DNA of 64,000 nt from Odiellus spinosus (Eukaryota > Arthropoda > Arachnida > Opiliones > Phalangiidae), in the NCBI GenBank assembly GCA_963920705.1, contig OY987233.1, forward strand, positions 6,872,001-6,936,000, written 5' to 3'. Under the pieces are notes generated by a model that worked only from the letters and a program-made list of their open reading frames with translations, did no database searches and was not told the DNA's origin. A program made the translations under genes and the position numbers. Position 1 is the first letter of the stretch; each line of letters begins with the position of its first letter. Shown here in pieces: positions 31,446 through 56,335 of the stretch.

Positions 31446-31981
31446 ATCTAGTACGCTCCCCTCTTTCATCTGACATTTTTCAAGTACTCAAAATTATATC
31501 GAAAAGAAAAATTTAGGCAATACCTTCGTTTAAAGAAAGTGACAGTTACGTTGCGACTAATTACTTTAAAAGTATGGAATATTCTGAAGATAAGAATGTA
31601 AATTTTAACCCGTCGCGTTTCTAAGCTCGATATTCTTTGTTAAGAGGACATTATTCGGTAAGAATGGAGTCAAACGCAAATATTTTTTTTCGAATGTGAC
31701 AGAATTTAAAGTATTTTTTACTTTGTGAAAACTAATTTTAATTTTTAGTTGTAATATTTAAGTTCTTTCAAAACAAATTGAAAGTACAATTTTGAGGCAT
31801 TAAAACTCACTCGATCACCATTTCCTGGTGTATTTATTTCTTTAATATTAACAGGAACAAACAACCATCAGGTCACATTTTCAGCGCTATTCCAAGCTGT
31901 GAGAGTAAGATCCAGTCTTTTCCAATATTTTCCAAGAATCAATTGAATATTTTGAAATGTCAATCAAATATATTTGTAAAA

Positions 31982-31987
31982 AATAAA
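31982..31987 (+). terminator. Candidate poly(A) signal of Max
   Basis: AATAAA about 540 nt after the Max stop, directly before the first S1 repeats. It is the most plausible 3' end signal, but AT-rich satellite sequence follows and would supply many chance hexamers. Confidence 0.3.
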
Positions 31988-31989
31988 TA

Positions 31990-32486
31990 AATAGACCCCA
32001 TGTAAAATAAATAATCAAAAATTTTTACAAGGGGTACCCCTTGTAAAAAATAATACACCCCCTGTAAAATAAATGATCTAAAATTTTACAAGGAGTACCC
32101 CTTGTAAAAAATAATACACCCCCTGTAAAATAGATGATCTAAAATTTTACAAGGGGTACCCCTTGTAAAAATATAATACACCCCCTGTAAAATAAATAAT
32201 CTAAAATTTTACAAGGAGTACCCCTTGTAAAAAATAATACACCCCCTGTAAAATAAATGATCTAAAATTTTACAAGGGGTACCCCTTGTAAAAAAAAATA
32301 ATTAGAAATTTTACAAGGTACCCCTTGTAAAAAAAAATAAATACACCCCCTGTAAAATAAATAATCAAAAATTTTACAAGGGGTACCCCTTGTAAAAAAA
32401 ATAATACACCCCTATAAAATCAATTATCAAAAATTTTACAAGGGGTACCCCTTGTAAAAAAATAATACACCCCCTGTAAAATAAAT
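31990..32486. repeat. Satellite family S1 (palindrome-bearing repeat), left block
   Basis: Units of about 60-65 bp alternate acaccccctgtaaaataaat and aaaattttacaaggggtacc. The second carries the perfect 20-bp palindrome TACAAGGGGTACCCCTTGTA (for example 32,437-32,456). This is the left end of the mirror-image block. Confidence 0.9.
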
Positions 32487-34724
32487 AATCTCAATTATCC
32501 AAATCTCAAAAATCTCAATTTTCCATATCTCAATTATCTCAATTTTCCAAATCTCAAAAATCTCAATTATCTCAATTTTCCAAATCTCAATTATCTCAAT
32601 TTTCCAAATCTCAAAAATCTCAATTATCTCAATTTTCCAAATCTCAAAAATCTCAATTTTCCAAATCTCAAAAATCTCAATTTTCCAAATCTCAATTATC
32701 CAAATCTCAAAAATCTCAATTTTCCAAATCTCAAAAATCTCAATTATCTCAATTTTCAAATCTCAAAAATCTCAATTTTCCAAATCTCAAAAATCTCAAT
32801 TTTCAAACCTCAAAAATCTCAATTTTCCAAATCTCAATTTTTCAAATCTCAACTATCCAAATCTCAAAAATCTCAATTATCCAAATCTCAAAAATCTCAC
32901 TTATCCAAATCTCAAAAATCTCAATTTTCCAAATCTCAAAAATCTCAATTTTCCAAATCTCAAAAATTTAAATTTTCCAAATCTCAATTATCCAAATCTC
33001 AAAAATCTCAATTTTCCAAATCTCAAAAATCTCAATTTTCAAATCTCAAAAATCTCAATTTTCAAAATCTCAAAAATCTCAATTATCTCAATTTTCCAAA
33101 TCTCAAAAATCTCAATTTTCCAAATCTCAATTATCTCAATTTTCCAAATCTCAATTATCTCAATTTTCCAAATCTCAATTTTCCAAATCTAAAAATATCA
33201 ATTTTCCAAATCTAAAAATATCAATTTTCCAAATATCAATTATTCAAATCTCAATTATCCAAATCTCAAAAATCTCAATTATCCAAATCTCAAAAATCTC
33301 AATTATCCAAATCTCAAAAATCTCAATTATCCAAATCTCAAAAATCTGAATTATCCGAATCTCAAAAATCTCAATTTTCCAAATCTGAAAAATCTCAATT
33401 ATCCAAATCACAAAAATCTCAATTTTCCAAATCTCAATTATCCAAATCTCAAAAATCTCAATTTTCCAAATCTCAAAAATCTCAATTTTCAAATCTCAAA
33501 AATCGCAATTTTCCAAATCTCAAAAATCTCAATTATCTCAATTTTCAAACCTCAAAAATCTCAATTTTCCAAATCTCAAAAATCTCAATTTTCCAAATCT
33601 CAACTATCCAAGTCTCAAAAATCTCAATTATCCAAATCTCAAAAATCTCAATTATCCAAATCTCAAATATCTCAATTATCCAAATCTCAAAAATCTCAAT
33701 TTTCCAAATCTCAAAAATCTCAATTTTTCCAAATCTCAAAAATCTCAATTTTCCAAATCTCAAAAATCTCAATTTTCCAAATCTCAAAAATCTCAATTTT
33801 CCAAATCTCAATTATTCAAATCTCAATTATCCAAATCTCAAAAATCTCAATTATCCAAATCTCAAAAATCTCAATTTTCCAAATCTCAACTATTCAAGTC
33901 TCAAAAATCTCAATTATCCAAATCTCAAAAATCTCAATTATCCAAATCTCAAAAATCTCAATAATCCAAATCTCAAAAATCTCAATTATCCAAATCTCAA
34001 AAATCTCAATTATCCAAATCTCAAAAATCTCAATTTTCCAAATCTCAACTATTCAAGTCTCAAAAATCTCAACTATCCAAATCTCAAAAATCTCAATCAT
34101 CCAAATCTCAAAAATCTCAATTATCCAAATCTCAAAAATCTCAATTATCTCAATTTTCAAATCTCAAAAATCTCAATTATCTCAATTTTCCAAATCTCAA
34201 TTATTCAAATCTCAATTATCAAAATTTCAATTATCCAAATCTCAATTATCCAAATCTCAAAAATCTCATTTTTCCAAATCTCAAAAATCTCAATTTTTAA
34301 AATCTCAAAAATCTCAATTTTCCAAATCTCAAAAATCTCAATTTTCCAAATCTCAAAAATCTCAATTTTCCAAATCTCAAAAATCTCAATTTTCCAAATC
34401 TCAAAAATCTCAATTTTCCAAATCTCAAAAATCTCAATTTTCCAAATCTCAAAAATCTCAATTTTCCAAATCTCAAAAATCTCAATTTTCCAAATCTCAA
34501 AAATCTCAATTTTCCAAATCTCAAAAATCTCAATTTTCCAAATCTCAAAAATCTCAATTTTCCAAATCTCAAAAATCTCAATTTTAAAAATCTCAAAAAT
34601 CTCAATTTTCCAAATCTCAAAAATCTCAATTTTCCAAATCTCAAAAATCTCAAATTTCCAAATCTCAAAAATCTCAATTTTCCAAATCTCAAAAATCTCA
34701 ATTTTCCAAATCTCAAAAATCTCA
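32487..34724. repeat. Satellite family S2 (24-bp unit), left block
   Basis: About 90 tandem copies of atctcaattttccaaatctc-type units, with atctcaattatcc and other variants. The unit length of 24 is a multiple of three and lacks stops on the minus strand, so long meaningless reading frames appear. The same family lies in reverse orientation at 42,674, 46,362 and 49,786. Confidence 0.95.
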
Positions 34725-36320
34725 GGGGGTGTATTTATTATTATTATTTTTTTACAGGGGTGTATTTATTATTTATTTTTTTTTACATGGGGTGTATTTA
34801 TTATTTATTTTTTTACAGGGGGTGTATTTATTATTTTTTTTTCAGGTGGTGTATTTATTATTTATTTTTTTACAGGGGGTGTATTTATTATTTATTTTTT
34901 TTACAGGGGGTGTATTTATTATTTTTTTTTCAGGGGGTGTATTTATTTTTTACAGGGGTTATATTTATTATTATTTTACATGGGGTGTATTTATTAAAAA
35001 TCAATTATTATTTTTTTACAAGGGGTACCCCTTGTAAAAAAAAACCAATTATTATTTTTTACAAGGGGTAAAAAAATAATAATTGATTTTATTTTGTAAA
35101 AAAAAAAAAAAATCAATTTTTTTTTTTTTTTTTACAAGGGGTACCCCTTGTAAAAAAAAAATAATTGATTTTATTTTACAAGGGGTGCCCCTTGTAAAAA
35201 AAATCAATTATTATTTTTTTACGTAGGGGAACCCCTTGTAAAAAAAAAAAAAATTAACAGGGGGTGTATTTATTATTTTTTTTACAGGGGGTGTATGTAT
35301 TATTATTTTTTTTCAGGGGGTGTATTTATTATTCATTTTTTTACAGGGGGTGTATTTATTATATTTTTTTAAAGGGGGTGTATTTATTATTTATTTATTT
35401 TACAGCGGGTGTATTAATTATTTATTTTTTTACAGGGGGTGTATTTATTATTTATTTTTTTACAGGGGACGTATTTAATATTTTTTTTTTTACAGGGTTT
35501 GTATTTATTATTTATTTTTTTTACAGGGGTTGTATTTATTATTTTTTTATAGGGGGTGTATTTATTATTTTTTTACAGGGGGTGTATTTATTATTTATTT
35601 ATTTTACAGCGGGTGTATTAATTATTTATTTTTTTTACAGGGGGTGTATTTATTATTTATTTTTTTTTACAGCGGGTGTATTTATTATTTATTTTTTTAC
35701 ATGGGGTGTATTTATTATTTATTTTTTTTACAGGGGGTGTATTTATTATTTTTTTTTACAGGGGACGTATTTAATATTTTTTTTACATGGGTGTGTATTT
35801 ATTATTTATTTTTTTACAGGGGGTGTATTTATTATTTATATTTTTACAGGGGGTGTATTTATTATTTTTTTTATAGGGGGTGTATTTATTATTTATTTTT
35901 TACAGGGGGTGTATTTATTATTTATTTTTTACAGGGGGTGTATTTATTATTATTTTTTTACAGGGTTTGTATTTATTATTTTTTTTTTCAGGGGGTGTAT
36001 TTATTATTCATTTTTTTACTAGGGGTGTTTTTATTATTTATTTTTTTTTACAGGGGGTGAATTTATTGTTATTTTTTTTGCAGGGGGTGTATTTATTATT
36101 TAATTTTTTTACAGGGGGTGTATTTATTATTTATTTTTTTACAGGGGGTGTATTTATTATTTATTTTTTACAGGGGGTGTATTTATTATATATTTTTACA
36201 GGAGGTGTATTTATTATTTTTTTACAGGGGTGTATTTATTATTTTTTTTTTTTACAGGGGGTGTATTTACTATTATTTTTTTTACAGGGGGTGTATTTAT
36301 AAAAAACAAGTTATTATTTT
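34725..36320. repeat. Satellite family S3 (~30-bp unit), left block, plus orientation
   Basis: Tandem gggggtgtatttattattta followed by a T run and ca. It is interrupted at about 35,000-35,265 by S1-type palindromes. All reading frames across it are repeat translations rich in Phe, Ile, Tyr and Gly and are not genes. Confidence 0.95.
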
Positions 36321-36410
36321 TTTACAAGGGGTAACCCTTGTAAAAAAAATCAATTATTATTTTTTTACAATAATTATTATTGTAACAATTATTATTATTA
36401 TTATTGTAAA
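36321..36410. other. Axis of the mirror-image satellite block
   Basis: S3 changes orientation across this 90-bp segment. It contains tacaaggggtaacccttgta and ttacaataattattattgta, both near-palindromes. To the left S3 reads gggggtgtattta; to the right it reads taaatacaccccc. Confidence 0.8.
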
Positions 36411-39400
36411 AAAAATACACCCCCTGTAAAAAAAAATAAATAATAAATACACCCCCTGTAAAAAAAATAAATAATAAATACACCCCTGTAAAAATAAATA
36501 ATAAATACACCCCCTGTAAAAAAATAATAATAAATACACCCCCTGTAAAAAAATGCATAATAAATACACCCCCTGTATTTTTTTTTTTTTTTTTTTTACA
36601 AGGGGTACCCCCTGTGAAAAAAATAAATATTAAATACCACCCCCTGTAAAAAAAATAAATAATAAATACACCCCCTGTAAAAAAAAAAAAAAAATAAATA
36701 CACCCCCCCTGTAAAAAAAATATTAAATACACCCCCTGTAAAAAAATAAATGATAAATACACCCCCTGTAAAAAAAATAAATATTAAATACACCCCATGT
36801 AAAAAAACAAATAATAAATACACCCACTGTAAAAACAAAATAATAAATACACCCCCTGTAATTTTTTTTACAAGGGGTACCCCCTGTAAAAAAAAAATAA
36901 ATATTAAATACACCCCCTGTAAAAAAAATAAATAATAAATACACCCCCTGTAAAAAAAAAAAAAAAAAAAAAAACACCCCCTGTAAAAAAAATATTAAAT
37001 ACACCCCATGTAAAAAAATAAATAATAAATACACCCACTGTAAAAAAAAATAATAAATACACCCACTGTAAAAAAAAATAATAAATACACCCCCTGTAAA
37101 AAAAATAAATATGAAATACACCCCCTGTAAAAAAAAAAATAATAAATACACCCACTGTATAAAAGTAAATATTAAATACACCCCCTGTAAAAAAAATATT
37201 AAATACACCCCCTGTAAAAAAAAATAAATGATAAATACACCCCCTGTAAAAAAAATAAATATTAAATACACCCCATGTAAAAAAATAAATAATAAATACA
37301 CCCACTGTAAAAAAAAATAATAAATACACCCCCTGTAAAAAAAAAAAAATATGAAATACACCCCCTGTAAAAAAATAAATATTAAATACACCCCCTGTAA
37401 AAAAGTAAATATTAAATACACCCCCTGTAAAAAAATAAATAATAAATACACCCCCTGTAAAAAAAAATAATAAATACACCCCCTGTAATTTTTTTTTTTT
37501 TTTTACAAGGGGTACCCCCTGTGAAAAAAATAAATATTAAATACCACCCCCTGTAAAAAAAATAAATAATAAATACACCCCCTGTAAAAAAAAAAAAAAA
37601 AAAATACACCCCCCTGTAAAAAAAATAATAAATACACCCCCTGTAAAAAAAATAAATATTAAATACACCCCATGTAAAAAAACAAATAATAAATACACCC
37701 ACTGTAAAAAATAAATATTAAATACACCCCCTGTAAAAAAAATAAATAATAAATACACCCCCTGTAAAAAAAAAAAAAAAAATAAATACACCCCCCTGTA
37801 AAAAAATATTAAATACACCCCCTGTAAAAAAAAATAAATGATAAATACACCCCCTGTAAAAAAAATAAATGATAAATACACCCCCTGTAAAAAAAAAAAA
37901 TATTAAATACACCCCATGTAAAAAAATAAATAATAAATACACCCACTGTAAAAAAAATAATAAATACACCCCCTGTAAAAAAAAAAAAATATGAAATACA
38001 CCCCCTGTAAAAAAATAAATATTAAATACACCCCTGTAAAAAAGTAAATATTAAATACACCCCCTGTAAAAAAAATAAATAATAAATACACCCCTGTAAA
38101 AGAAAATAATAAATTCACCCCCTGTAATTTTTTTTTTTTTTTACAAGGGGTACCCCTGTAAAAAAAATAAATATTAAATACACCCCCTGTAAAAAAATAA
38201 ATAATAAATACACCCCCTGTAAAAAAAAATAAATACACAGCCCGTAAAAAAAATATATTAAATACACCCCCTGTAAAAAAAAAAAATGATAAATACACCC
38301 CATGTAAAAAAATAAATAATAAATACACCCACTGTAAAAAAATAATAAATACACCCCCTGTAAAAAAAATAAATGATAAATACACCCCCTGTAAAAAAAA
38401 TAAATATTAAATACACCCCATGTAAAAAAATAAATAATAAATACACCCACTGTAAAAAAAATAATAAATACACCCCCTGTAAAAAAAAAAAAATATATAT
38501 GAAATACACCCCCTGTAAAAAAATAAATATTAAATACACCCCCTGTAAAAAAGTTAATATTAAATACACCCCCTGTAAAAAAATAAATAATAAATACACC
38601 CCTGTAAAAGAAAATAATAAATTCACCCCCTGTAATTTTTTTTTTTACAAGGGGTACCCCTGTAAAAAAAAAATAAATATTAAATACACCCCCTGTAAAA
38701 AAAATAAATAATAAATACACCCCCTGTAAAAAAAAAAATAAATACACAGCCCGTAAAAAAATATATTAAATACACCACCTGTAAAAAAAATAAATGATAA
38801 ATACACCCCCTGTAAAAAAAATAAATATTAAATACACCCCATGTAAAAAAATAAATAATAAATACACCCACTGTAAAAAAATAATAAATACACCCCCTGT
38901 AAAAAAAATAAATATGAAATACACCCCCTGTAAAAAAATAAATATTAAATACACCCCTGTAAAAAGTAAATATTAAATACACCCCCTGTAAAAAATAAAT
39001 GATAAATACACCCACTGTAAAAAAAAATAATAAATACACCCCTGTAAAAATAAATAATAAATACACCCCCTGTAAAAAAATAATAATAAATACACCCCCT
39101 GTAAAAAAATGCATAATAAATACACCCCCTGTAATTTTTTTTTTTTTTTTTTACAATGGGTACCCCCTGTGAAAAAAATAAATATTAATTACCACCCCCT
39201 GTAAAAAAAATAAATAATAAATACACCCCCTGTAAAAAAAAAAAAAAAAAAAATAAATACACCCCCTGTAAAAAAAATATTAAATACACTCCCTGTAAAA
39301 AATAAATGATAAATACACCCCCTGTAAAAAAAATAAATATTAAATACACCCCATGTAAAAAAACAAATAATAAATACACCCACTGTAAAAACAAAATAAT

Positions 39401-39652
39401 AAATACACCCCCTGTAAAAAAAATAAATATGAAATACACCCCCTGTACAAAAATAAATATTAAATACACCCCCTGTAAAAAAGTAAATATTAAATACACC
39501 CCCTGTAAAAAAATAAATAATAAATACAACCCCTGTAAAAAAAAATAATAAATACACCCCCTGTAATTTTTTTTACAAGGGGTACCCCCTGTAAAAAAAA
39601 ATAAATATTAAATACACCCCCTGTAAAAAAAATAAATAATAAATACACCCCC

Positions 39653-39690
<38 letters not shown>

Positions 39691-42618
39691 CCCCCTGTAA
39701 AAAAAATATTAAATAAACCCCCTGTAAAAAAATATTAAATACACCCCCTGTAAAAAAATAAATGATAAATACACCCCCTGTAAAAAAAAAAATATTAAAT
39801 ACACCCCATGTAAAAAAATAAATAATAAATACACCCACTGTAAAAAAAATAATAAATACACCCCCTGTAAAAAAAAAAAATATGAAATACACCCCCTGTA
39901 AAAAATAAATAATAAATACACCCACTGTAAAAAAGTAAATATTAAATACACCCCCTGTAAAAAAATAAATATTAAATACACCCCCTGTAAAAAAGTAAAT
40001 ATTAAATACACCCCCTGTAAAAAAATAAATAATAAATACACCCCCTGTAAAAAAAAATAATAAATACACCCCCTGTAATTTTTTTTTTTTTTACAAGGGG
40101 TACCCCCTGTAAAAAAAAATAAATATTAAATACACCCCCTGTAAAAAAAATAAATAATAAATACACCCCCTGTAAAAAAAAATAAATAAATACACCCCCT
40201 GTAAAAAAAATATTAAATACACCCCCTGTAAAAAAATAAATGATAAATACACCCCCTGTAAAATAAATAAATATTAAATACACCCCATGTAAAAAAACGA
40301 ATAATAAATACACCCACTGTAAAAACAAAATAATAAATACACCCCCTGTAAAAAAAAAAAAATATGAAATACACCCCCTGTAAAAAAATAAATATTAAAT
40401 ACACCCCCTGTAAAAAAGTAAATATTAAATACACCCCCTGTAAAAAAATAAATAATAAATACACCCCCTGTAAAATAAAATAATAAATACACCCCCTGTA
40501 ATTTTTTTTACAAGGGGTACCCCTGTAAAAAAAATAAATATTAAATACACCCCCTGTAAAAAAAATAAATAATAAATACACCTCCTGTAAAAAAAAAATA
40601 AATACACAGCCCGTAAAAAAAATATATTAAATACACCCCCTGTAAAAAAAATAAATGATAAATACACCCCCTGTAAAAAAATTAAATATTAAATACACCC
40701 CATGTAAAAAAATAAATAATAAATACACCCACTGTAAAAAAATAATAAATACACCCCCTGTAAAAAAAAATAAATATGAAATACACCCCCTGTAAAAAAA
40801 TAAATATTAAATACACCCCCTGTAAAAAAAATAATAAATACACCCCAGTTAAAAAATAATAATAAATACTCCCCCTGTAAAAAATATTTTAAATACACCC
40901 CTTGTAAAAAAAAAAAAAATAAATACACCCCCTGTAAAAAAATAAATATTAAATACACCCCCTGTAAAAAAATAAATAATAAATACACCCCCTGTAAAAA
41001 AATAAATAATAAATACACCCCCCTGTAAAAAAATTAATAAAAAATAAACCCCCTGTAAAAAAAATTAATAATAAATACACTCCCTGTAAAAAAATAAATA
41101 ATAAATGCACCCACTGTAAAAAAATAATAAATACACCCCCTGTAAATTTTTTTTACAAGGGGTACCCCCTGTAAAAAAAAAAAAAATTTAAATACACCCC
41201 CTGTAAAAAAAATAAATAAATACACCCCCCTGTAAAAAAAAATATTAAATACACCCCCTGTAAAAAAAATAAATGATAAATACACCCCCTGTAAAAAAAA
41301 TAAATATTAAATACACCCCATGTAAAAAAATAAATAATAAATACACCCACTGTAAAAAAAATAATAAATACACCCCCTGTAAAAAAAAAAATATGAAATA
41401 CACCCCCTGTAAAAAAATAAATATTAAATACACCCCCTGTAAAAAAGTAAATATTAAATACACCCCCTGTAAAAAAATAAATAATAAACACACCCCCTGT
41501 AAAAGAAAATAATAAATACACCCGCTGTAATTTTTTTTTTTTTTTACAAGGGGTACCCCTGTAAAAAAAATAAATATTAAATACACCCCCTGTTAAAAAA
41601 ATAAATAATAAATACACCTCCTGTAAAAAAAAAAATAAATACACAGCCCGTAAAAAAAATATATTAAATACACCCCCTGTAAAAAAAATAATAAATACAC
41701 CCCCAGTTAAAAAATAATAATAAATACTCCCCCTGTAAAAAATATTTTAAATACACCCCCTGTAAAAAAAATAATAAATACACCCCCAGTTAAAAAATAA
41801 TAATACACCCCCTGTAAAAAATATTTTAAATACACCCCCTGTAAAAAAAATAATAAATACACCCCCTGTAAAAAAATAAATATTAAATACACCCCCTGTA
41901 AAAAAATAAATAATAAATACACCCCCTGTAAAAAAAATAAATAATAAATACACCCCTTGTAAAAAAAATAAATAATAAATACACCCCTTGTAAAAAAAAA
42001 TAATAAATACACTCTCTGTAATTTTTTTTTTTTACAAGGGGTACCCCCTGTAAAAAAAATAAATAATAAATACACCCCCCTGTAAAAAAATTAATAAAAA
42101 ATAAACCCCCTGTAAAAAAAATTAATAATAAATACACCCCCCTGTAAAAAAATTAATAAAAAATACACTCCCTGTAAAAAAATAAATAATAAATGCACCC
42201 ACTGTAAAAAAATAATAAATACACCCCCTGTAAAAAAAAAATAAATAATAAATACACCCCCTGTAAAAAAATAAATATTAAATACACCCCCTGTAAAAAA
42301 ATAAATAATAAATACACCCCCTGTAAAAAAAAATAAATAAATACACCCCTTGTAAAAAAAAATAATAAATACACTCTCTGTAATTTTTTTTTTACAAGGG
42401 GTACCCCCTGTAAAAAAAATAAATAATAAATACACCCCCCTGTAAAAAAATTAATAAAAAATAAACCCCCTGTAAAAAAAATTAATAATAAATACACCCC
42501 CCTGTAAAAAAATTAATAAAAAATACACTCCCTGTAAAAAAATAAATAATAAATGCACCCACTGTAAAAAAATAATAAATACACCCCCTGTAAAAAAATA
42601 AATATGAAATACACCCCC

Positions 42619-42664
<46 letters not shown>
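36411..42664. repeat. Satellite family S3, right block, reverse orientation
   Basis: About 200 units of aaatacaccccctgtaaaaa plus an A-rich remainder. They are organised as a higher-order repeat: every 270-640 bp a T run and acaaggggtacc(c)cctgta appear (near 36,595, 36,868, 37,497, 38,132, 38,640, 39,143, 39,566, 40,081, 40,502, 41,147, 41,531, 42,023 and 42,383). The order of variant units (catgta, cactgta, cacagcccgta) is repeated between these marks. It ends in a poly(A) run of about 45. Confidence 0.95.
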
Positions 42665-42668
<4 letters not shown>

Positions 42669-42673
42669 CCCCC

Positions 42674-43850
42674 TGAGATTTTTGAGATTTGGAAAATTGA
42701 GATTTTTAAGATTTGGAAAATTGACATTTTTGAGATTTGGAAAATTGAGATTTTTGAGGTTTGGATAATTGAGATTTTTGAGATTTGGATAATGGAGATT
42801 TTTGAGATTTGGATAATGGAGATTTTTGAGATTTGGAAAATTGAGATTTTTGAGATTTGGAAAAATTGAGATTTTTGAGATTTGGAAAATTGAGATTTTT
42901 GAGATTTGGAAAATTGAGATTTTTAAGATTTGGAAAATTGAGATTTTGGAGATTTGGAAAATTGAGATTTTTGAGATTTGGAAAATTGAGATTTTTGAGA
43001 TTTGGAAAATTGAGATTTTTGAGATTTGGAAAATTGAGATTTTTGAGATTTGGAAAATTGAGATTTTTGAGATTTGGAAAATTGAGATTTTTGAGATTTG
43101 GAAAATTGAGATTTTTGAGATTTGGAAAAATTGAGATTTTTGAGATTTGGAAAATTGAGATTTTTAAGATTTGGAAAATTGAGATTTTTGAGATTTGGAA
43201 AATTGAGATTTTTGACATTTTTGAGATTTTTGAGATTTGGAAAATTGAGATTTTTGAGATATGGAAAATAGAGTATTTTGAGATTTGGAAAATTGTGATT
43301 TTTGAGATTTGGAAAATATAGATTTTTGAGATTTGGATAATTGAGATTTTTGAGATTTGGAAAATTGAGATTTTTGAGATTTGGAAAATTGAGATTTTTG
43401 AGATTTGGAAAATTGAGATTTTTGAGATTTGGAAAATTGAGATTTTTGAGATTTGGAAAATTGAGATTTTTGAGATTTGGAAAATTGAGATTTTTGAGAT
43501 TTGGAAAATTGAGATTTTTGAGATTTGGAAAATTGAGATTTTTGAGATTTGGAAAATTGAGATTTTTGAGATTTGGAAAATTGAGATTTTTGAGATTTGG
43601 AAAATTGAAATTTTTGAGATTTGGAAAATTGAGATTTTTGAGATTTGGAAAATTGAGATTTTTGAGGTTTGGAAAATTGAGATTTTTGAGATTTGGAAAA
43701 TTGAGATTTTTGAGATTTGGAAAATTGAGATTTTTGAGATTTGGAAGATTGAGATTTTTGAGATTTGGAAAATTGAGATTTTTGAGATTTGGAAAATTGA
43801 GATTTTTGAGATTTTTAAAATTGAGATTTTTGAGATTTTTAAAATTGAGA
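42674..43850. repeat. Satellite family S2, right block, copy 1
   Basis: 24-bp units gagatttttgagatttgg plus aaaatt, opposite in orientation to 32,487-34,724. It starts the first of three S2-S1-S4 segments that are nearly identical to one another. Confidence 0.95.
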
Positions 43851-44545
43851 TTATTTTTTTTACAGGGGGTGTATTATTTTTTTTACAAATGGTACTTATT
43901 TTTTTACAAGGGGTACCCCTTGTAAAATTTTTGATTATTGATTTTACAGGGGGTGTATTATTTTTTTACAAGGGGTACCCATTGTAAAAGTTTTGATTAT
44001 TTATTTTACAGGGGGTGTATTATTTTTTTACAAGGGGTACCCCTTACTTATTGAAAAGGGGGTGTATTTATTTTTTTACAAGGGACGTATTTATTATTTT
44101 TTTTTTACAAAGGGTATCCCTAGTAAAATTTTTGATTATTAATTTTACAGAGGGCGTATTTATTTATTTTTTACAACGGGTACACCTTGTAAAATTTTTG
44201 ATTATTTATTTTACAGGGGGTGTATTTATTTTTCTTTTTTTACAAGGGGTACCCCTTGTAAAGTTTTCTATTATTTATTTTACAGGGGGTACCCTTTGTA
44301 AAAATTTTGATTATTTATTGTACAGGGGGTGTATTTACAGGGGATTTATTTATTTTTTTTACAAGGGGTATCCCTTTTAAAATTTTTGATTATTTATTTT
44401 ACAGGGGGTGTATTTATTTATTTTTTAAAAGGGGTACCCCTTGTAAAATTTTTGATTATTTATTTTACAGGGTGTGTATTTATTTATTTTTTGCAAGGGG
44501 TACCCCTGGTAAAATTTTTGATTATTTATTTTACAGGGGTACCCC
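43851..44545. repeat. Satellite family S1, right block, copy 1
   Basis: Irregular repeats of aaatttttgattatttatttt, acagggggtgtatt and tacaaggggtaccccttgta, with many single-base variants. It is the reverse complement of the S1 type seen at 31,990-32,486. Confidence 0.9.
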
Positions 44546-46004
44546 TTGTAAAAAAACACTTTGAAAATAAATAAAACACCCTTTTGAAAATAAATAAAAC
44601 ACCCTTTTGAAAATAAATAAAACACCCTTTTGAAAATAAATAAAACACCCTTTTGAAAATAAATAAAACACCCTTTTGAAAATAAATAAAACACCCTTTT
44701 GAAAATAAATAAAACACCCTTTTGAAAATAAATAAAACACCCTTTTGAAAATAAATAAAACACCCTTTTGAAAATAAATAAAACACCCTTTTGAAAATAA
44801 ATAAAACACCCTTTTGAAAATAAATAAAACACCCTTTTGAAAATAAATAAAACACCCTTTTGAAAATAAATAAAACACCCTTTTGAAAATAAATAAAACA
44901 CCCTTTTGAAAATAAATAAAACACCCTTTTGAAAATAAATAAAACACCCTTTTGAAAATAAAACATCCCTTTAAAAATTAATAAAAGAAACCTTTTAAAA
45001 TAAATAAAACACCTCTTTGAAAATAAATAAAACACTCCTTTGAAAATAAATAAAACACCCCATTAAAATAAATAAACACCCCTTGGAAAATGAATAAACA
45101 CCCCTTGGAAAATGAATAAACACCCCTTGGAAAATGAATAAACACCTCTTGGAAAATGAATAAACACCCCTTGGAAAATGAATAAACACCCCTTGGAAAA
45201 TGAATAAACACCCCTTGGAAAATGAATAAACACCCCTTGGAAAATGAATAAACACCCCTTTGAAAATTAAACAGCCTTTAAAAAATACCCTTTTGAAAAT
45301 AAAACAGCCTTAAAAAAACGCCTTTGTAAAATAAATAAAACACCCCTTTGAAAATAAATAACACACCCCTTTGAAAATAAATAACACACCCCTTTGAAAA
45401 TAAATAACACACCCCTTTGAAAATAAATAACACACCCCTTTGAAAATAAATAACACACCCCTTTGAAAATAAATAACACACCCCTTTGAAAATAAATAAC
45501 ACACCCCTTTGAAAATAAATGACACACCCCTTTGAAAATAAATAACACACCCCTTTTAAAATAAATAACACACCCCTTTCAAAATAAATAACACACCCCT
45601 TTGAAAATAAATAACACACCCCTTGGAAAATAAATAACACACCCCTTGGAAAATAAATAACACACCCCTTGGAAAATAAATAACACACCCCTTGGAAAAT
45701 AAATAACACACTTCTTGGAAAATAAATAACACACCCCTTTGAAAATAAATAAAACAACCCTTTCGAAATATATAAAACACCCCTTTGAAAATAAATAAAA
45801 CACCCCTTTGAAAATAAATAAAACACCCCTTTGAAAATAAATAAAACACCCCTTTGAAAATAAATAAAACACCCCTTTGAAAATAAAAACACACCCTTTT
45901 GAAAATAAATAACACACCCCTTTGAAAATAAATAACACACCCCTTTGAAAATAAATAACACACCCCTTTGAAAATAAATAACACACCCCTTTGAAAATAA
46001 ATAA
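44546..46004. repeat. Satellite family S4 (22-23-bp units), copy 1
   Basis: Three sub-blocks: aaacacccttttgaaaataa (44,546-44,960), acaccccttggaaaatgaat (about 45,070-45,250) and acacccctttgaaaataaat (about 45,310-46,004). The core acacccc-tt-g-aaaa-taaat resembles S3 units (acaccccctgtaaaa-taaat), so S4 may be a shortened descendant of S3. Confidence 0.95.
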
Positions 46005-46317
46005 TAAATACACCCCTTGTAAAAAAAATAAATAATAAATACACCCCTTGTAAAAAAAAATAATAAATACACTCTCTGTAATTTTTTTTTTTACAAGGGG
46101 TACCCCCTGTAAAAAAAATAAATAATAAATACACCCCCCTGTAAAAAAATTAATAAAAAATAAACCCCCTGTAAAAAAAATTAATAATAAATACACCCCC
46201 CTGTAAAAAAATTAATAAAAAATACACTCCCTGTAAAAAAATAAATAATAAATGCACCCACTGTAAAAAAATAATAAATACACCCCCTGTAAAAAAATAA
46301 ATATGAAATACACCCCC

Positions 46318-46356
<39 letters not shown>

Positions 46357-49071
46357 CCCCCTGAGATTTTTGAGATTTGGAAAATTGAGATTTTTAAGAT
46401 TTGGAAAATTGACATTTTTGAGATTTGGAAAATTGAGATTTTTGAGGTTTGGATAATTGAGATTTTTGAGATTTGGATAATGGAGATTTTTGAGATTTGG
46501 ATAATGGAGATTTTTGAGATTTGGAAAATTGAGATTTTTGAGATTTGGAAAAATTGAGATTTTTGAGATTTGGAAAATTGAGATTTTTGAGATTTGGAAA
46601 ATTGAGATTTTTAAGATTTGGAAAATTGAGATTTTGGAGATTTGGAAAATTGAGATTTTTGAGATTTGGAAAATTGAGATTTTTGAGATTTGGAAAATTG
46701 AGATTTTTGAGATTTGGAAAATTGAGATTTTTGAGATTTGGAAAATTGAGATTTTTGAGATTTGGAAAATTGAGATTTTTGAGATTTGGAAAATTGAGAT
46801 TTTTGAGATTTGGAAAAATTGAGATTTTTGAGATTTGGAAAATTGAGATTTTTAAGATTTGGAAAATTGAGATTTTTGAGATTTGGAAAATTGAGATTTT
46901 TGACATTTTTGAGATTTTTGAGATTTGGAAAATTGAGATTTTTGAGATATGGAAAATAGAGTATTTTGAGATTTGGAAAATTGTGATTTTTGAGATTTGG
47001 AAAATATAGATTTTTGAGATTTGGATAATTGAGATTTTTGAGATTTGGAAAATTGAGATTTTTGAGATTTGGAAAATTGAGATTTTTGAGATTTGGAAAA
47101 TTGAGATTTTTGAGATTTGGAAAATTGAGATTTTTGAGATTTGGAAAATTGAGATTTTTGAGATTTGGAAAATTGAGATTTTTGAGATTTGGAAAATTGA
47201 GATTTTTGAGATTTGGAAAATTGAGATTTTTGAGATTTGGAAAATTGAGATTTTTGAGATTTGGAAAATTGAGATTTTTGAGATTTGGAAAATTGAAATT
47301 TTTGAGATTTGGAAAATTGAGATTTTTGAGATTTGGAAAATTGAGATTTTTGAGGTTTGGAAAATTGAGATTTTTGAGATTTGGAAAATTGAGATTTTTG
47401 AGATTTGGAAAATTGAGATTTTTGAGATTTGGAAGATTGAGATTTTTGAGATTTGGAAAATTGAGATTTTTGAGATTTGGAAAATTGAGATTTTTGAGAT
47501 TTTTAAAATTGAGATTTTTGAGATTTTTAAAATTGAGATTATTTTTTTTACAGGGGGTGTATTATTTTTTTTACAAATGGTACTTATTTTTTTACAAGGG
47601 GTACCCCTTGTAAAATTTTTGATTATTGATTTTACAGGGGGTGTATTATTTTTTTACAAGGGGTACCCATTGTAAAAGTTTTGATTATTTATTTTACAGG
47701 GGGTGTATTATTTTTTTACAAGGGGTACCCCTTACTTATTGAAAAGGGGGTGTATTTATTTTTTTACAAGGGACGTATTTATTATTTTTTTTTTACAAAG
47801 GGTATCCCTAGTAAAATTTTTGATTATTAATTTTACAGAGGGCGTATTTATTTATTTTTTACAACGGGTACACCTTGTAAAATTTTTGATTATTTATTTT
47901 ACAGGGGGTGTATTTATTTTTCTTTTTTTACAAGGGGTACCCCTTGTAAAGTTTTCTATTATTTATTTTACAGGGGGTACCCTTTGTAAAAATTTTGATT
48001 ATTTATTGTACAGGGGGTGTATTTACAGGGGATTTATTTATTTTTTTTACAAGGGGTATCCCTTTTAAAATTTTTGATTATTTATTTTACAGGGGGTGTA
48101 TTTATTTATTTTTTAAAAGGGGTACCCCTTGTAAAATTTTTGATTATTTATTTTACAGGGTGTGTATTTATTTATTTTTTGCAAGGGGTACCCCTGGTAA
48201 AATTTTTGATTATTTATTTTACAGGGGTACCCCTTGTAAAAAAACACTTTGAAAATAAATAAAACACCCTTTTGAAAATAAATAAAACACCCTTTTGAAA
48301 ATAAATAAAACACCCTTTTGAAAATAAATAAAACACCCTTTTGAAAATAAATAAAACACCCTTTTGAAAATAAATAAAACACCCTTTTGAAAATAAATAA
48401 AACACCCTTTTGAAAATAAATAAAACACCCTTTTGAAAATAAATAAAACACCCTTTTGAAAATAAATAAAACACCCTTTTGAAAATAAATAAAACACCCT
48501 TTTGAAAATAAATAAAACACCCTTTTGAAAATAAAACATCCCTTTAAAAATTAATAAAAGAAACCTTTTAAAATAAATAAAACACCTCTTTGAAAATAAA
48601 TAAAACACTCCTTTGAAAATAAATAAAACACCCCATTAAAATAAATAAACACCCCTTGGAAAATGAATAAACACCCCTTGGAAAATGAATAAACACCCCT
48701 TGGAAAATGAATAAACACCTCTTGGAAAATGAATAAACACCCCTTGGAAAATGAATAAACACCCCTTGGAAAATGAATAAACACCCCTTGGAAAATGAAT
48801 AAACACCCCTTGGAAAATGAATAAACACCCCTTTGAAAATTAAACAGCCTTTAAAAAATACCCTTTTGAAAATAAAACAGCCTTAAAAAAACGCCTTTGT
48901 AAAATAAATAAAACACCCCTTTTAAAATAAATAAAACACCCCTTTGAAAATAAATAACACACCCCTTTGAAAATAAATAACACACCCCTTTGAAAATAAA
49001 TAACACACCCCTTTGAAAATAAATAACACACCCCTTTGAAAATAAATAACACACCCCTTTGAAAATAAATA
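46005..49071. repeat. Higher-order satellite unit, copy 2 (S3-S2-S1-S4)
   Basis: Repeats the segment that begins near 41,945. S3 lies at 46,005-46,353, S2 at 46,362-47,538, S1 at 47,539-48,234 and S4 at 48,235-49,071. The S2 and S1 parts line up base for base with copy 1 at an offset of 3,688 bp over more than 1.8 kb. The offset then drops to 3,573 within S4, a loss of 115 bp or five 23-bp units. Confidence 0.93.
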
Positions 49072-49745
49072 ATAAATACACCCCTTGTAAAAAAAATAAA
49101 TAATAAATACACCCCTTGTAAAAAAAAATAATAAATACACTCTCTGTAATTTTTTTTTTTACAAGGGGTACCCCCTGTAAAAAAAATAAATAATAAATAC
49201 ACCCCCCTGTAAAAAAATTAATAAAAAATAAACCCCCTGTAAAAAAAATTAATAATAAATACACCCCCCTGTAAAAAAATTAATAAAAAATACACTCCCT
49301 GTAAAAAAATAAATAATAAATGCACCCACTGTAAAAAAATAATAAATACACCCCCTGTAAAAAAAAATAAATAATAAATACACCCCCTGTAAAAAAATAA
49401 ATATTAAATACACACTCTGTAAAAAAATAAATAATAAATACACCCCCTGTAAAAAAAAAAAAAATAAATACACCCCTTGTAAAAAAAAATAATAAATACA
49501 CTCTCTGTAATTTTTTTTTTACAAGGGGTACCCCCTGTAAAAAAAATAAATAATAAATACACCCCCCTGTAAAAAAATTAATAAAAAATAAACCCCCTGT
49601 AAAAAAAATTAATAATAAATACACCCCCCTGTAAAAAAATTAATAAAAAATACACTCCCTGTAAAAAAATAAATAATAAATGCACCCACTGTAAAAAAAT
49701 AATAAATACACCCCCTGTAAAAAAATAAATATGAAATACACCCCC

Positions 49746-49780
<35 letters not shown>

Positions 49781-52700
49781 CCCCCTGAGATTTTTGAGAT
49801 TTGGAAAATTGAGATTTTTAAGATTTGGAAAATTGACATTTTTGAGATTTGGAAAATTGAGATTTTTGAGGTTTGGATAATTGAGATTTTTGAGATTTGG
49901 ATAATGGAGATTTTTGAGATTTGGATAATGGAGATTTTTGAGATTTGGAAAATTGAGATTTTTGAGATTTGGAAAAATTGAGATTTTTGAGATTTGGAAA
50001 ATTGAGATTTTTGAGATTTGGAAAATTGAGATTTTTAAGATTTGGAAAATTGAGATTTTGGAGATTTGGAAAACTGAGATTTTTGAGATTTGGAAAATTG
50101 AGATTTTTGAGATTTGGAAAATTGAGATTTTTGAGATTTGGAAAATTGAGATTTTTGAGATTTGGAAAATTGAGATTTTTGAGATTTGGAAAATTGAGAT
50201 TTTTAAGATTTGGAAAATTGAGATTTTTGAGATTTGGAAAATTGAGATTTTTGACATTTTTGAGATTTTTGAGATTTGGAAAATTGAGATTTTTGAGATA
50301 TGGAAAATAGAGTATTTTGAGATTTGGAAAATTGTGATTTTTGAGATTTGGAAAATATAGATTTTTGAGATTTGGATAATTGAGATTTTTGAGATTTGGA
50401 AAATTGAGATTTTTGAGATTTGGAAAATTGAGATTTTTGAGATTTGGAAAATTGAGATTTTTGAGATTTGGAAAATTGAGATTTTTGAGATTTGGAAAAT
50501 TGAGATTTTTGAGATTTGGAAAATTGAGATTTTTGAGATTTGGAAAATTGAGATTTTTGAGATTTGGAAAATTGAGATTTTTGAGATTTGGAAAATTGAG
50601 ATTTTTGAGATTTGGAAAATTGAGATTTTTGAGATTTGGAAAATTGAAATTTTTGAGATTTGGAAAATTGAGATTTTTGAGATTTGGAAAATTGAGATTT
50701 TTGAGATTTGGAAAATTGAGATTTTTGAGGTTTGGAAAATTGAGATTTTTGAGATTTGGAAAATTGAGATTTTTGAGATTTGGAAAATTGAGATTTTTGA
50801 GATTTGGAAAATTGAGATTTTTGAGATTTGGAAAATTGAGATTTTTGAGATTTGGAAAATTGAGATTTTTGAGATTTGGAAGATTGAGATTTTTGAGATT
50901 TGGAAAATTGAGATTTTTGAGATATGGAAAATTGAGATTTTTGAGATTTTTAAAATTGAGATTTTTGAGATTTTTAAAATTGAGATTATTTTTTTTACAG
51001 GGGGTGTATTATTTTTTTTACAAATGGTACTTATTTTTTTACAAGGGGTACCCCTTGTAAAATTTTTGATTATTGATTTTACAGGGGGTGTATTATTTTT
51101 TTACAAGGGGTACCCATTGTAAAAGTTTTGATTATTTATTTTACAGGGGGTGTATTATTTTTTTACAAGGGGTACCCCTTACTTATTGAACAGGGGGTGT
51201 ATTTATTTTTTTACAAGGGACGTATTTATTATTTTTTTTTTACAAAGGGTATCCCTAGTAAAATTTTTGATTATTAATTTTACAGAGGGCGTATTTATTT
51301 ATTTTTTACAACGGGTACACCTTGTAAAATTTTTGATTATTTATTTTACAGGGGGTGTATTTATTTTTCTTTTTTTACAAGGGGTACCCCTTGTAAAGTT
51401 TTCTATTATTTATTTTACAGGGGGTACCCTTTGTAAAAATTTTGATTATTTATTGTACAGGGGGTGTATTTACAGGGGATTTATTTATTTTTTTTACAAG
51501 GGGTATCCCTTTTAAAATTTTTGATTATTTATTTTACAGGGGGTGTATTTATTTATTTTTTAAAAGGGGTACCCCTTGTAAAATTTTTGATTATTTATTT
51601 TACAGGGTGTGTATTTATTTATTTTTTGCAAGGGGTACCCCTGGTAAAATTTTTGATTATTTATTTTACAGGGGTACCCCTTGTAAAAAAACACTTTGAA
51701 AATAAATAAAACACCCTTTTGAAAATAAATAAAACACCCTTTTGAAAATAAATAAAACACCCTTTTGAAAATAAATAAAACACCCTTTTGAAAATAAATA
51801 AAACACCCTTTTGAAAATAAATAAAACACCCTTTTGAAAATAAATAAAACACCCTTTTGAAAATAAATAAAACACCCTTTTGAAAATAAATAAAACACCC
51901 TTTTGAAAATAAATAAAACACCCTTTTGAAAATAAATAAAACACCCTTTTGAAAATAAAACATCCCTTTAAAAATTAATAAAAGAAACCTTTTAAAATAA
52001 ATAAAACACCTCTTTGAAAATAAATAAAACACTCCTTTGAAAATAAATAAAACACCCCATTAAAATAAATAAACACCCCTTGGAAAATGAATAAACACCC
52101 CTTGGAAAATGAATAAACACCCCTTGGAAAATGAATAAACACCTCTTGGAAAATGAATAAACACCCCTTGGAAAATGAATAAACACCCCTTGGAAAATGA
52201 ATAAACACCCCTTGGAAAATGAATAAACACCCCTTGGAAAATGAATAAACACCCCTTTGAAAATTAAACAGCCTTTAAAAAATACCCTTTTGAAAATAAA
52301 ACAGCCTTAAAAAAACGCCTTTGTAAAATAAATAAAACACCCCTTTGAAAATAAATAACACACCCCTTTGAAAATAAATAACACACCCCTTTGAAAATAA
52401 ATAACACACCCCTTTGAAAATAAATAACACACCCCTTTGAAAATAAATAACACACCCCTTTGAAAATAAATAACACACCCCTTTGAAAATAAATAACACA
52501 CCCCTTTGAAAATAAATAACACACCCCTTTGAAAATAAATAACACACCCCTTTTAAAATAAATAACACACCCCTTTCAAAATAAATAACACACCCCTTTG
52601 AAAATAAATAACACACCCCTTGGAAAATAAATAACACACCCCTTGGAAAATAAATAACACACCCCTTGGAAAATAAATAACACACCCCTTGGAAAATAAA

Positions 52701-53030
52701 TAACACACTTCTTGGAAAATAAATAACACACCCCTTTGAAAATAAATAAAACAACCCTTTCGAAATATATAAAACACCCCTTTGAAAATAAATAAAACAC
52801 CCCTTTGAAAATAAATAAAACACCCCTTTGAAAATAAATAAAACACCCCTTTGAAAATAAATAAAACACCCCTTTGAAAATAAAAACACACCCTTTTGAA
52901 AATAAATAACACACCCCTTTGAAAATAAATAACACACCCCTTTGAAAATAAATAACACACCCCTTTGAAAATAAATAACACACCCCTTTGAAAATAAATA
53001 ACACACCCCTTTGAAAATAAATAACACACC
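49072..53030. repeat. Higher-order satellite unit, copy 3 (S3-S2-S1-S4)
   Basis: S3 at 49,072-49,775, S2 at 49,786-50,988, S1 at 50,989-51,686, S4 from 51,687. Offsets from copy 2 are 3,424 bp, then 3,351, 3,447 and 3,424. Each step corresponds to whole repeat units (73 = 24+24+25, 96 = 4 x 24, 23 = one S4 unit). The S4 part resembles copy 1 (45,278-46,004) more than copy 2, whose S4 is shortened. Confidence 0.93.
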
Positions 53031-54995
53031 GCTTTGAAAATAAATAACACACCCCTTTGAAAATAAATAAGAATCCCCTTAGAAAATAAATAAGTCACCC
53101 CTTTGAAAATGACACCCCTTTGAAAATAAATAAAACACCCCTTTGAAAATAAAAAACACCCCTTTGAAAATAAAAACACCCCTTTGAAAATAAATAACAC
53201 ATCCATTGGAAAATAAATAACACATCCCTTGGAAAATAAATAACACATCCCTTGGAAAATAAATAACACATCCCTTGGAAAATAAATAACACACCCCTTT
53301 GAAAATAAATAACACACCCCTTGGAAAATAAATAACACACCCCTTGGAAAATAAATAACACACTCCTTGGAAAATAAATAACACACCCCTTTGAAAATAA
53401 ATAACACACCCCTTGGAAAATAAATAACACACCCCTTTGAAAATAAATAACACACCCCTTGGAAAATAAATAACACACCCCTTGGAAAATAAATAACACA
53501 CTCCTTGGAAAATAAATAAAACAACCCTTTCAAAATATATAAAACACCCCTTTGAAAATAAATAAAACACCCCTTTGAAAATAAATAAAACACCCCTTTG
53601 AAAATAAATAAAACACCCCTTTGAAAATAAAAACACACCCTTTTGAAAATAAATAACACACCCCTTTGAAAATAAATAACACACCCCTTTGAAAATAAAT
53701 AACAAACCCCTTTGAAAATAAATAAGAATCCCCTTTGAAAATAAATAAGTCACCCCTTTGAAAATGACACCCCTTTGAAAATAAATAAAACACCCCTTTG
53801 AAAATAAAAACACCCATTTGAAAATAAATAACACATCCATTGGAAAATAAATAACACATCCCTTGGAAAATAAATAACACATCCCTTGGAAAATAAATAA
53901 CACATCCCTTGGAAAATAAATAACACATCCCTTGGAAAATAAATAACACATCCCTTGGAAAATAAATAACACATCCCTTGGAAAATAAATAACACATCCC
54001 TTGGAAAATAAATAACACATCCCTTGGAAAATAAATAACACATCCCTTGGAAAATAAATAACACATCTCTTGGAAAATAAATAACACATCTCTTGGAAAA
54101 TAAATAACACATCCCTTGGAAAATAAATAACACATCCCTTGGAAAATAAATAACACATCCCTTGGAAAATAAATAACACATCCCTTGGAAAATAAATAAC
54201 ACATCCCTTGGAAAATAAATAACACATCCCTTGGAAAATAAATAACACATCCCTTGGAAAATAAATAACACATCCCTTGGAAAATAAATAACACATCCCT
54301 TGGAAAATAAATAACACATCCCTTGGAAAATAAATAACACATCCCTTGGAAAATAAATAACACATCCCTTGGAAAATAAATAACACATCCCTTGGAAAAT
54401 AAATAACACATCCCTTGGAAAATAAATAACACATCCCTTGGAAAATAAATAACACATCCCTTGGAAAATAAATAACACATCCCTTGGAAAATAAATAACA
54501 CATCCCTTGGAAAATAAATAACACATCCCTTGGAAAATAAATAACACATCCCTTGGAAAATAAATAACACATCCCTTGGAAAATAAATAACACATCCCTT
54601 GGAAAATAAATAACACATCCCTTGGAAAATAAATAACACATCCCTTGAAAAATAAATAACACATCCCTTGGAAAATAAATAACACATCCCTTGGAAAATA
54701 AATAACACATCCCTTGGAAAATAAATAACACATCCCTTGGAAAATAAATAACACATCCCTTGGAAAATAAATAACACATCCCTTTGAAAATTAATAAAAC
54801 ACCCCTTTGAAAATTAATAAAACACCCCTTTGAAAATTAATAAAACACCCCTTGAAAATAACATACCCCTTTGAAAATAAACAAAAAATCCCTTTGAAAA
54901 TAAATAAAACACCTATTTAAAATAAATAGTACACCCCTTTGAAAATTAATAAAACACCTATTTGAAAATAAAATACCCTTGGAAATTGTTTTCCA
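53031..54995. repeat. Satellite family S4, terminal array
   Basis: A continuation of S4, dominated from about 53,850 to 54,780 by about 40 nearly identical 23-bp units of acacatcccttggaaaataa plus ata. Because 23 is not a multiple of three and the unit has no stop on the minus strand, all three minus-strand frames stay open for over 1 kb. They do not look like proteins. Confidence 0.95.
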
Positions 54996-55279
54996 AGGGG
55001 TATTAAACGAAAATCTTTATATATTATAATAATTTGAAATTATTATATTATTATAGAATGTAATTATTATATTATACTAGTATGTAATTATTATATTATA
55101 ATAGAATTTAATATTATATTATAATAGAATGTAATTATTATATTATAATAGAATGTAATTATTATATTATGATAGTATATAATTATAATATTATAATAGA
55201 ATGTAATTATATTATAATAGTGTTTGATTATTATTAGAGATCGGGGTTTGGACAAAATAATCCACAACTATCAGTTAAT

Positions 55280-55321
<42 letters not shown>

Positions 55322-56335
55322 GGAAAATTATTCGCGATTACATTGTATTTATCATAGACTTTCCTCGAAAAATTTAAAGTTATGAATAAAGATAAAATAA
55401 TCAGAAATTTTCTTGTCCAAACCCCGATCTCTAATTATTATATTATAATATAATAATAGTATGTTATTATTATATTATAATAGTATTCAATTATTATAAT
55501 AGTATTCAATTATTATATTGTAATAATATTCAATTATTATATTGTAATAGTATTCAATTATTATATTGTAATAGTATTCAATTATTATATTATAATAGTA
55601 TTCAATTATTATAATAGTATTCAATTATTATATTGTAATAATATTCAATTATTATATTGTAATAGTATTCAATTATTATATTGTAATAGTATTCAATTAT
55701 TATATTATAATAGTATTCAATTATTATATTATAAGAGTATTCAATTATTATATTATAAGAGTATTCAATTATTATATGATAAGAGTATTCAATTATTATA
55801 TGATAAGAGTATTCAATTATTATATTATAAGAGTATTCAATTATTATATTATAAGAGTATTCAATTATTATATTATAAGAGTATTCAATTATTATATTAT
55901 AAGAGTATTCAATTATAATATTATAAGAGTATTCAATTATTATATTATAAGAGTATTCAATTATTATATTATAAGAGTATTCAATTATTATATTATAATA
56001 GTATTCAATTATTATATTATAATAGTATTCAATTATTATATTATAATAGTATTCAATTATTATATTATAATAGTATTCAATTATTATATTATAATAGTAT
56101 TCAATTATTATATTATAATAGTATTCAATTATTATATTATAATAGTATTCAATTATTATATTATAATAGTATTCAATTATTATATAATAGTATTAAATTA
56201 TTATATTATAGTATTCAATTATTATATTATAATAGTATTCAATTATTATATTATAATAGTATTCAATTATTATATTATAATAGTATTCAATTATTATATT
56301 ATAATAGTATTCAATTATAATATTATAATAATAAA
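54996..56335. repeat. 24-bp AT satellite
   Basis: Tandem attcaattattatattata plus atagt units (24 bp) from about 55,440, with a more irregular taatagaatgtaattattat start at 55,030-55,230. A MITE splits it at 55,234-55,434. An apparent reading frame at 55,776-56,348 is only the repeat translated. Confidence 0.93.
55234..55434. mobile_element. 201-bp MITE inside the AT satellite
   Basis: Perfect 22-bp terminal repeats beginning TTAGAGATCGGGGTTTGGAC. TTATTA lies on both sides and could be a target duplication, although such words are common in the host satellite. It contains a poly(A) run of about 35. Confidence 0.85.

Follow-up and report, generated by a model that had tools for sequence, protein, structure and literature searches.

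How does a mirror image made of satellite arrays come to stand beside a gene, and is it the scar of one accident or a member of a kind? The question is raised by a 64,000-nucleotide stretch of the Odiellus spinosus genome (contig OY987233.1, positions 6,872,001 to 6,936,000; hereafter, the window), in which a 24.4-kb tandem-repeat block (31974-56330) begins ~0.5 kb past the last coding exon of a Max-like gene. Within this block, modules follow one another in the order S1-S2-S3 and then, across an axis, S3-S2-S1, with orientations opposed across the axis (31974-44558). Similar mirror blocks occur at many other genomic places and suggest that the repeat is of a recurrent, foldback-like type, not the product of one accident. 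The reading that we favor, at a probability of roughly 0.45, places the block in a dispersed family of foldback-like, noncoding palindromic repeat blocks, in which the arms of a locus are copied from or matched to each other. Outward from the axis, the modules are S3, (S4), S2, and S1, and not every block or arm is complete. The block most likely has no host function. The window belongs to a 443-Mb assembly of 286 contigs, and the genome counts given below are lower bounds.

Mirror symmetry of the block

Inverted matches to the right arm cover 100% of the left arm, the best of them scoring 2,879 bits (82% over 2,927 columns), compared with 243 bits for the best direct-strand match. In the controls for this alignment, a sequence that was only reversed yielded 0 matches, and one that was only complemented reached 81 bits at best. 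Furthermore, two junctions, S3>S2 (TACACCCCCTGAGATTTTTGAGATTTGG) and S2>S1, keep one phase across the left arm and all three right copies of the series. Junction phase and alignment scores thus bear out the mirror order proposed in the preliminary description, with slightly wider limits. In ungapped columns, the left and right arms are 88% identical in S1 and 95% identical in S2, and the longest exact inverted match, 270 bp, lies within S2.

The left arm opens with S1 (31974..32486, + strand), in which Tandem Repeats Finder (TRF), the sequence itself, and a palindrome scan delineate ~61-bp units, each consisting of a palindrome, P, and one S3-like core; in the best S1 units, P is perfect and 26 bp long (TTTTACAAGGGGTACCCCTTGTAAAA). 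It continues with S2 (32487..34724, − strand), made of 24-bp units with the unit TGAGATTTTTGAGATTTGGAAAAT on the − strand in this arm, and with S3 (34724..36300, − strand), made of ~30-bp units with the core TACACCCCCTGTAAAA on the − strand and with P units at 35011-35199. The axis (36300..36414, without strand) holds a single P (36317-36348) and an AT hairpin at 36360-36414, centered on 36387. DNA folding of this hairpin gave a z score of −5.2, with 0 of 200 shuffles as good, for a stretch that includes the P hairpin besides the AT hairpin. Beyond the axis lie S3 (36413..42673, + strand), with 30-bp units, an internal higher-order repeat, and 13 P-like inverted half units spaced ~0.48 kb apart; S2 (42674..43852, + strand); and S1 (43853..44558, − strand). 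They are followed by S4 (44559..45993, + strand), composed of 23-bp units (CTTTGAAAATAAATAAAACACCC).

The modules are not three different satellite families, as was first supposed, given that S1 and S3 have a common core (ACACCCCCTGTAAAA; 0/300 shuffles reach the score). As judged from shuffled sequences, S4 probably has the S3 core too (2/300 and 1/300 shuffles for its two forms), and no relation was found between S2 and S3 (219/300 shuffles as good). Core orientation flips within S1 and S3 at P. Small palindromes are concentrated in the block, which holds 20 with arms of ≥10, whereas the window outside the block holds 1; the block also contains 57 P-like sites with ≤3 changes. Scans of the window against Rfam (gathering scores) and for tRNAs gave no match, and 0 matches came from searches of viral contigs for P and S2 as exact patterns and of prokaryote contigs for an S3 pattern.

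Mirror blocks elsewhere in the genome

A 33-base stretch of S2 occurs at 3,035 places in the genome, 1,526 on one strand and 1,509 on the other. About the first 100 of these places were listed and fall into four loci, all on the contig denoted C1, and all four were examined: K1 (24980356-25002269), in which S2 and S3 alternate ~13 times in the left arm and 8 times in the right arm and the right end of which runs into N; K2 (27634172-27665790); K3 (30902839-30925672); and K4 (34062108 to ~34087960). All four (4/4) carry an S3−|S3+ axis with the polarity seen in the window. S4 lies between S2 and S3 on the left of K2, on the right of K3, and on both sides of K4. The S3 unit length varies among the five loci (30, 31, 32, 32, and 17-18 bp), and the arms within a locus agree. 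Separately, the right arm of K3 contains a G-rich GAGGGG run (L046, C1:30922881-30923812).

A tight pattern for the S3−|S3+ axis was found at 55 places and the opposite polarity at 2, with 0 places for the reversed control in both searches; this ratio is uncalibrated and hence indicative, given that the two polarity patterns have different flanking letters. Fifty of the 55 axis places were listed, on 12 contigs, and amount to 42 loci after hand merging within 20 kb. The window, K3, and K4 are missing from the listed axes, their spacer or unit being too different, so that 55 is itself a lower bound. P alone has 3,950 exact places in the genome, its reversed control having 0. From a less selected sample, ascertained through P, six pieces were taken, representing five loci (L053 and L054 were counted as one, the middle, 462001-477000, being unread), and two of these loci, L052 and L053/L054, are S3 dyads with P at the axis. 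P also stands at the axis of the window and not at those of K1, K3, and K4. Axis sequences differ between loci, and L052 and L053 have a common linker beside P. Such a linker was considered as a family-defining mark and rejected as too rare (6 and 3 places).

Junctions within and between loci

The junctions between modules provide a finer view of how the arms of a locus are related. The S3>S2 junction of the window has 4 places in the genome, all of them in the window (3 on the + and 1 on the − strand). Similarly, across the whole genome, an S2|S3 junction private to K1 occurs 7 times on the + and 4 times on the − strand, always within K1, and, among the five loci compared, an S4|S3 junction private to K4 occurs in both arms (2 + and 2 −). 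Other junctions are shared between loci. The S1|S2 junction of the window is also found at three places on contig C7, with the letter of the left arm of the window and not that of its right copies, and one of these places (11474492) lies <17 kb from two listed axes. K3 and K4 have a common S1|S2 junction, and the left arm of K2 and the right arm of K3 have a common S4|S3 junction. In comparisons of 14-mer profiles, the nearest arm is the own partner for 8 of the 10 arms, K2 and K3 being confusable, and, of the 120 pairings, the observed sum is reached by only 2, namely the correct pairing and that with K2 and K3 swapped; the agreement partly reflects module mix, because the compared stretches of K1 and K4 hold S2 and S4 besides S3. 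Nine flanks show no mutual similarity at 1e-5, as expected for copies at unrelated sites.

Unequal arms and probable later expansion

The arms of the window are unequal. S3 is 1,577 bp long in the left arm and 6,261 bp in the right arm, matching the 1.6 and 6.3 kb estimated initially, and S2 is 2,238 bp long in the left arm and 1,179 bp in the right arm, so the longer arm differs by module. When the two commonest spacer forms alone are counted, a spacer variant is present 53 times in the right S3 (53/134) and in 0 of 34 cases in the left S3 (Fisher 5e-7). The internal repeat of the right S3, 0.27-0.65 kb long, is punctuated by P, and 11 of 12 right S3 segments are closer to a right-side match (88-99%) than to the best left match (86-89%), the exception being segment 39573. 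Taken with the spacer variant, these segments support the initial proposal that a nested inverted duplication was followed by expansion of the right S3. Monomers of S2 cluster by arm (0/1000); clustering is not significant for S3 and S1 (110/1000; p 0.20).

The right arm, denoted copy A, is the first of three direct copies of an S3-S2-S1-S4 series reaching 54972. Copy B spans 45994..49070 (+) and copy C 49071..54972 (+), and the starts of S2 are spaced by 3.69 and 3.42 kb across A, B, and C. Copies A and C are 99.9% identical in S1 and 97.8% in S2, and A equals B over 2,215 identical bases (42633-44847 = 46321-48535), reflecting either a very recent duplication or an assembly piece placed twice. 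Given that the direct S1 copies are closer to each other (99.9% for A and C) than are the mirror arms (88% for the left arm and A), either the mirror predates the direct copies or sequence exchange takes place among the direct copies and not between the mirror arms. The original account of the S1/S2/S3 mirror missed these direct copies, as well as the kinship of S1 and S3 and the recurrence of the architecture elsewhere in the genome.

Origin of the palindromic blocks

We propose that the modules spread jointly to unrelated sites, via transposition or another copying process, and that, within a locus, one arm would be copied from or corrected by the other, so that new junctions become mirrored. 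Hairpins of P or S3 are candidate sites for such arm copying, by fold-back template switching or by gene conversion of the palindrome. Each arm may also expand by unequal exchange, which could account for the length of the right S3 and for the direct repeat A-B-C.

Several observations weigh against a spreading palindromic family. First, the symmetry is imperfect: the arms of the window are no longer closely alike, and its S3 arms are not significantly collinear when nonoverlapping fragments are compared (p 0.056-0.16); an apparent collinearity obtained with overlapping fragments (rho 0.85) was dropped on these grounds, and no preserved register was seen in S2 or S1 (rho −0.22 each). Inner junctions are unlike between the arms of K2 and between those of K3, among K1-K4, S1 is confined to the left sides of K3 and K4, none being seen at K1, the right-side S2 of K3 and K4 is only S2-like, and the S1 of L052 is unmirrored. 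Second, the loci ascertained through P include L056, a complete one-armed S1-S2 block with nonrepeat flanks on both sides; L055, which has no axis in the stretch read, its array continuing past the left edge; and L057, a mixture of flips with a small S3−|S3+ switch among them. Third, the block ends are fuzzy and not uniform, with no sharp terminus, and no target-site duplication (TSD) was found at 8 loci, where, in a test weakened by these fuzzy ends, the longest shared flank words average 5.5 letters for own pairs and 5.25 for mixed pairs. To these points are added the module mix in the arm comparison and the uncalibrated polarity ratio noted above. Half-P ends ((G)TACCCCTTG) occur at the left of K3, the left of K4, and the right of L054, and the remaining ends differ.

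The best-surviving alternative, which we regard as doubtful, is that a one-armed series spread first and that each locus later became palindromic by its own fold-back inverted duplication at an S3/P hairpin, the fixed polarity reflecting where folding is easiest. The existence of L056 speaks for this sequence of events and lowers our confidence in palindromic spread, and the mirrored junctions private to the window, K1, and K4, the unlikeness of axis sequences between loci, and the abundance of P hairpins in a block so rich in palindromes all fit it as well. Nevertheless, descent from a palindrome is the simpler explanation for a like module order and one polarity at 5/5 S2-bearing loci and for the excess of axes of one polarity, and L052 and L053 have a common linker beside P, albeit a rare one with 6 exact places. 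On account of the repeated order and polarity, we prefer a palindromic spreading element over one-armed spread. Given that private junctions are mirrored at single loci, arm-to-arm copying is needed under either reading.

A further scheme, in our estimation unlikely, would have mirror-image satellite arrays arise from P as a very small palindromic seed, half-cores being amplified outward in step and the arms templating each other. P (TTACAAGGGG|TACCCCTTGTAA) has the polarity of the large axes, G-rich on the left and C-rich on the right, and the macro-dyads could thus be amplified P palindromes. If true, this would amount to bidirectional, arm-copying satellite amplification, genome-wide and locus by locus.

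Selection for structure appears improbable. Kilobase-long hairpins might organize chromatin, as considered for the macro-dyads of Tribolium, or end Max transcription, and the strong local hairpins would suit such a role, as would the 568 AATAAA motifs on the + strand of the block, compared with 116 on the − strand, and the fact that, past the Max stop (31446-32068), AATAAA first appears within the opening satellite unit, at 31982, although an ATTAAA precedes it at 31799. However, the AATAAA excess is expected from the unit sequences alone, and arm and unit lengths vary widely among loci.

An artefact of assembly or of fold-back reads is very improbable for the block as a whole: the 2,215-bp identity of A and B could indeed betray a duplicated or misplaced piece, but the arms diverge by 12% (S1) and 5% (S2), the window contains no N, and unlike axes are found on 12 contigs. 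Judging from the same arm divergence and the gap-free sequence, a fold-back read origin of the dyad in particular is unlikely. Finally, a single inverted duplication or segmental inversion unrelated to other loci, which was our own first reading and, in the form of a breakage-fusion or fold-back event, one suggested by the preliminary description, is hardly tenable, for even though the S2|S3 junction of the window was found nowhere else in the genome, the genome count of S2 sites overturned it, axis polarity and a similar module order recur genome-wide, and the S1|S2 junction is common with C7.

Surroundings of the block

The Max-like gene is identified by an exon at 24815-24922 with a Pfam HLH match (9e-12), and the exon ending near 31445, which has no Pfam match, is the one that we take, from features of Max, to be its last. 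Between two Max exons lie, in this order, a 31-bp minisatellite (25317-26672), a 192-bp satellite with 16 copies (27113-30179), and a short further piece of the first minisatellite, with 29-31-bp units (30516-30632). At the right end of the block, S5 (55020..56330, +), an AT-rich 24-bp array, is broken by an insert at 55233-55435. This insert is ~200 bp long with perfect 23-bp terminal inverted repeats (TIRs; ATTAGAGATCGGGGTTTGGACAA) and resembles miniature inverted-repeat transposable elements.

Elsewhere in the window, related inverted repeats cluster at 9248-10280, 14434-16658, and 19911-20264, their arms reaching 198 bp with 100% complementarity. They probably represent a short TIR or foldback element present in several copies, located partly between trypsin-like exons. 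These exons (19149-20587) match Pfam Trypsin (1.6e-15, 1.6e-5, and 7.7e-14), with repeat sequence between two of them. A 19-bp array at 59952-60277 comprises 17 copies that are 97% alike.

Comparison with known systems

The comparisons that follow draw on excerpts of the cited papers. In these, foldback (FB)-type DNA transposons (FB4, Galileo, Tetris, and Tm1) are described as having long inverted arms with tandem repeats in several modules; the arms are unequal and variable, copies occur at many sites, many of them noncoding, and Tetris repeats have seeded satellite arrays (PMC4079207, PMC3573991, PMC3169594, PMC2955051). The blocks at the window and K1-K4 resemble such elements in their long, unequal inverted arms of tandem-repeat modules and in their occurrence at unrelated sites, with outer modules incompletely mirrored at K2-K4. 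The foldback elements of these excerpts are similar in plan and about one-tenth the size or less, FB4 being 0.6-2.3 kb and Tetris TIRs reaching 1.7 kb, compared with ~22-32 kb for the four C1 blocks. Tetris and Tm1 have TSDs of 8-10 bp, according to the same sources, whereas neither a TSD nor a sharp common terminus was seen here. Given that no TSD was seen and that no transposase search was made, we do not claim membership in the foldback transposons.

Among satellites, the nearest case is that of the Tribolium macro-dyads, described in the consulted part of a 2026 paper as kilobase-long inverted satellite subarrays spanning a few kb to several tens of kb, in which two satellites are intermingled, with conserved transition zones and dyad symmetry at several scales (PMC13081366); the paper states that such symmetries are documented only in Tribolium. 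The likeness lies in the arrangement of arrays as kilobase-long inverted subarrays. The Tribolium arrays lie within multi-megabase, putatively (peri)centromeric regions and have units of ~110-704 bp, whereas the blocks described here are dispersed on C1 and other contigs, with the window block lying between Max and a nonrepetitive right flank, and have units of 17-66 bp. With regard to conserved inversion sites, the blocks show a strong polarity (55 versus 2) but varied axis sequences. Primate alpha-satellite arrays, as excerpted, switch orientation within tandem arrays, with large inversions in one family, one of 3.2 Mb (PMC11062924), and, unlike here, without a mirrored series of different modules of one polarity. 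The short templated fold-back inversions at breaks in yeast, experimental products of 2 to ~150 bp in the part of the report considered (PMC11724301), represent a candidate step for small inverted units such as P, kilobase arms falling outside that size range. Mirrored arrays are not treated in the excerpts of PMC13427858 and PMC13192020, and no dispersed short-unit satellite palindromes of this size were found among the titles and abstract openings listed in searches of an open-access library, as distinct from the subscription literature.

In O. spinosus, by comparison, short-unit arrays form palindromes that are scattered over the genome, including one next to a gene. Their many axes, private mirrored junctions, and strong polarity make the growth of palindromic satellites by arm copying testable, as is the role of foldback-like elements as seeds of satellites.

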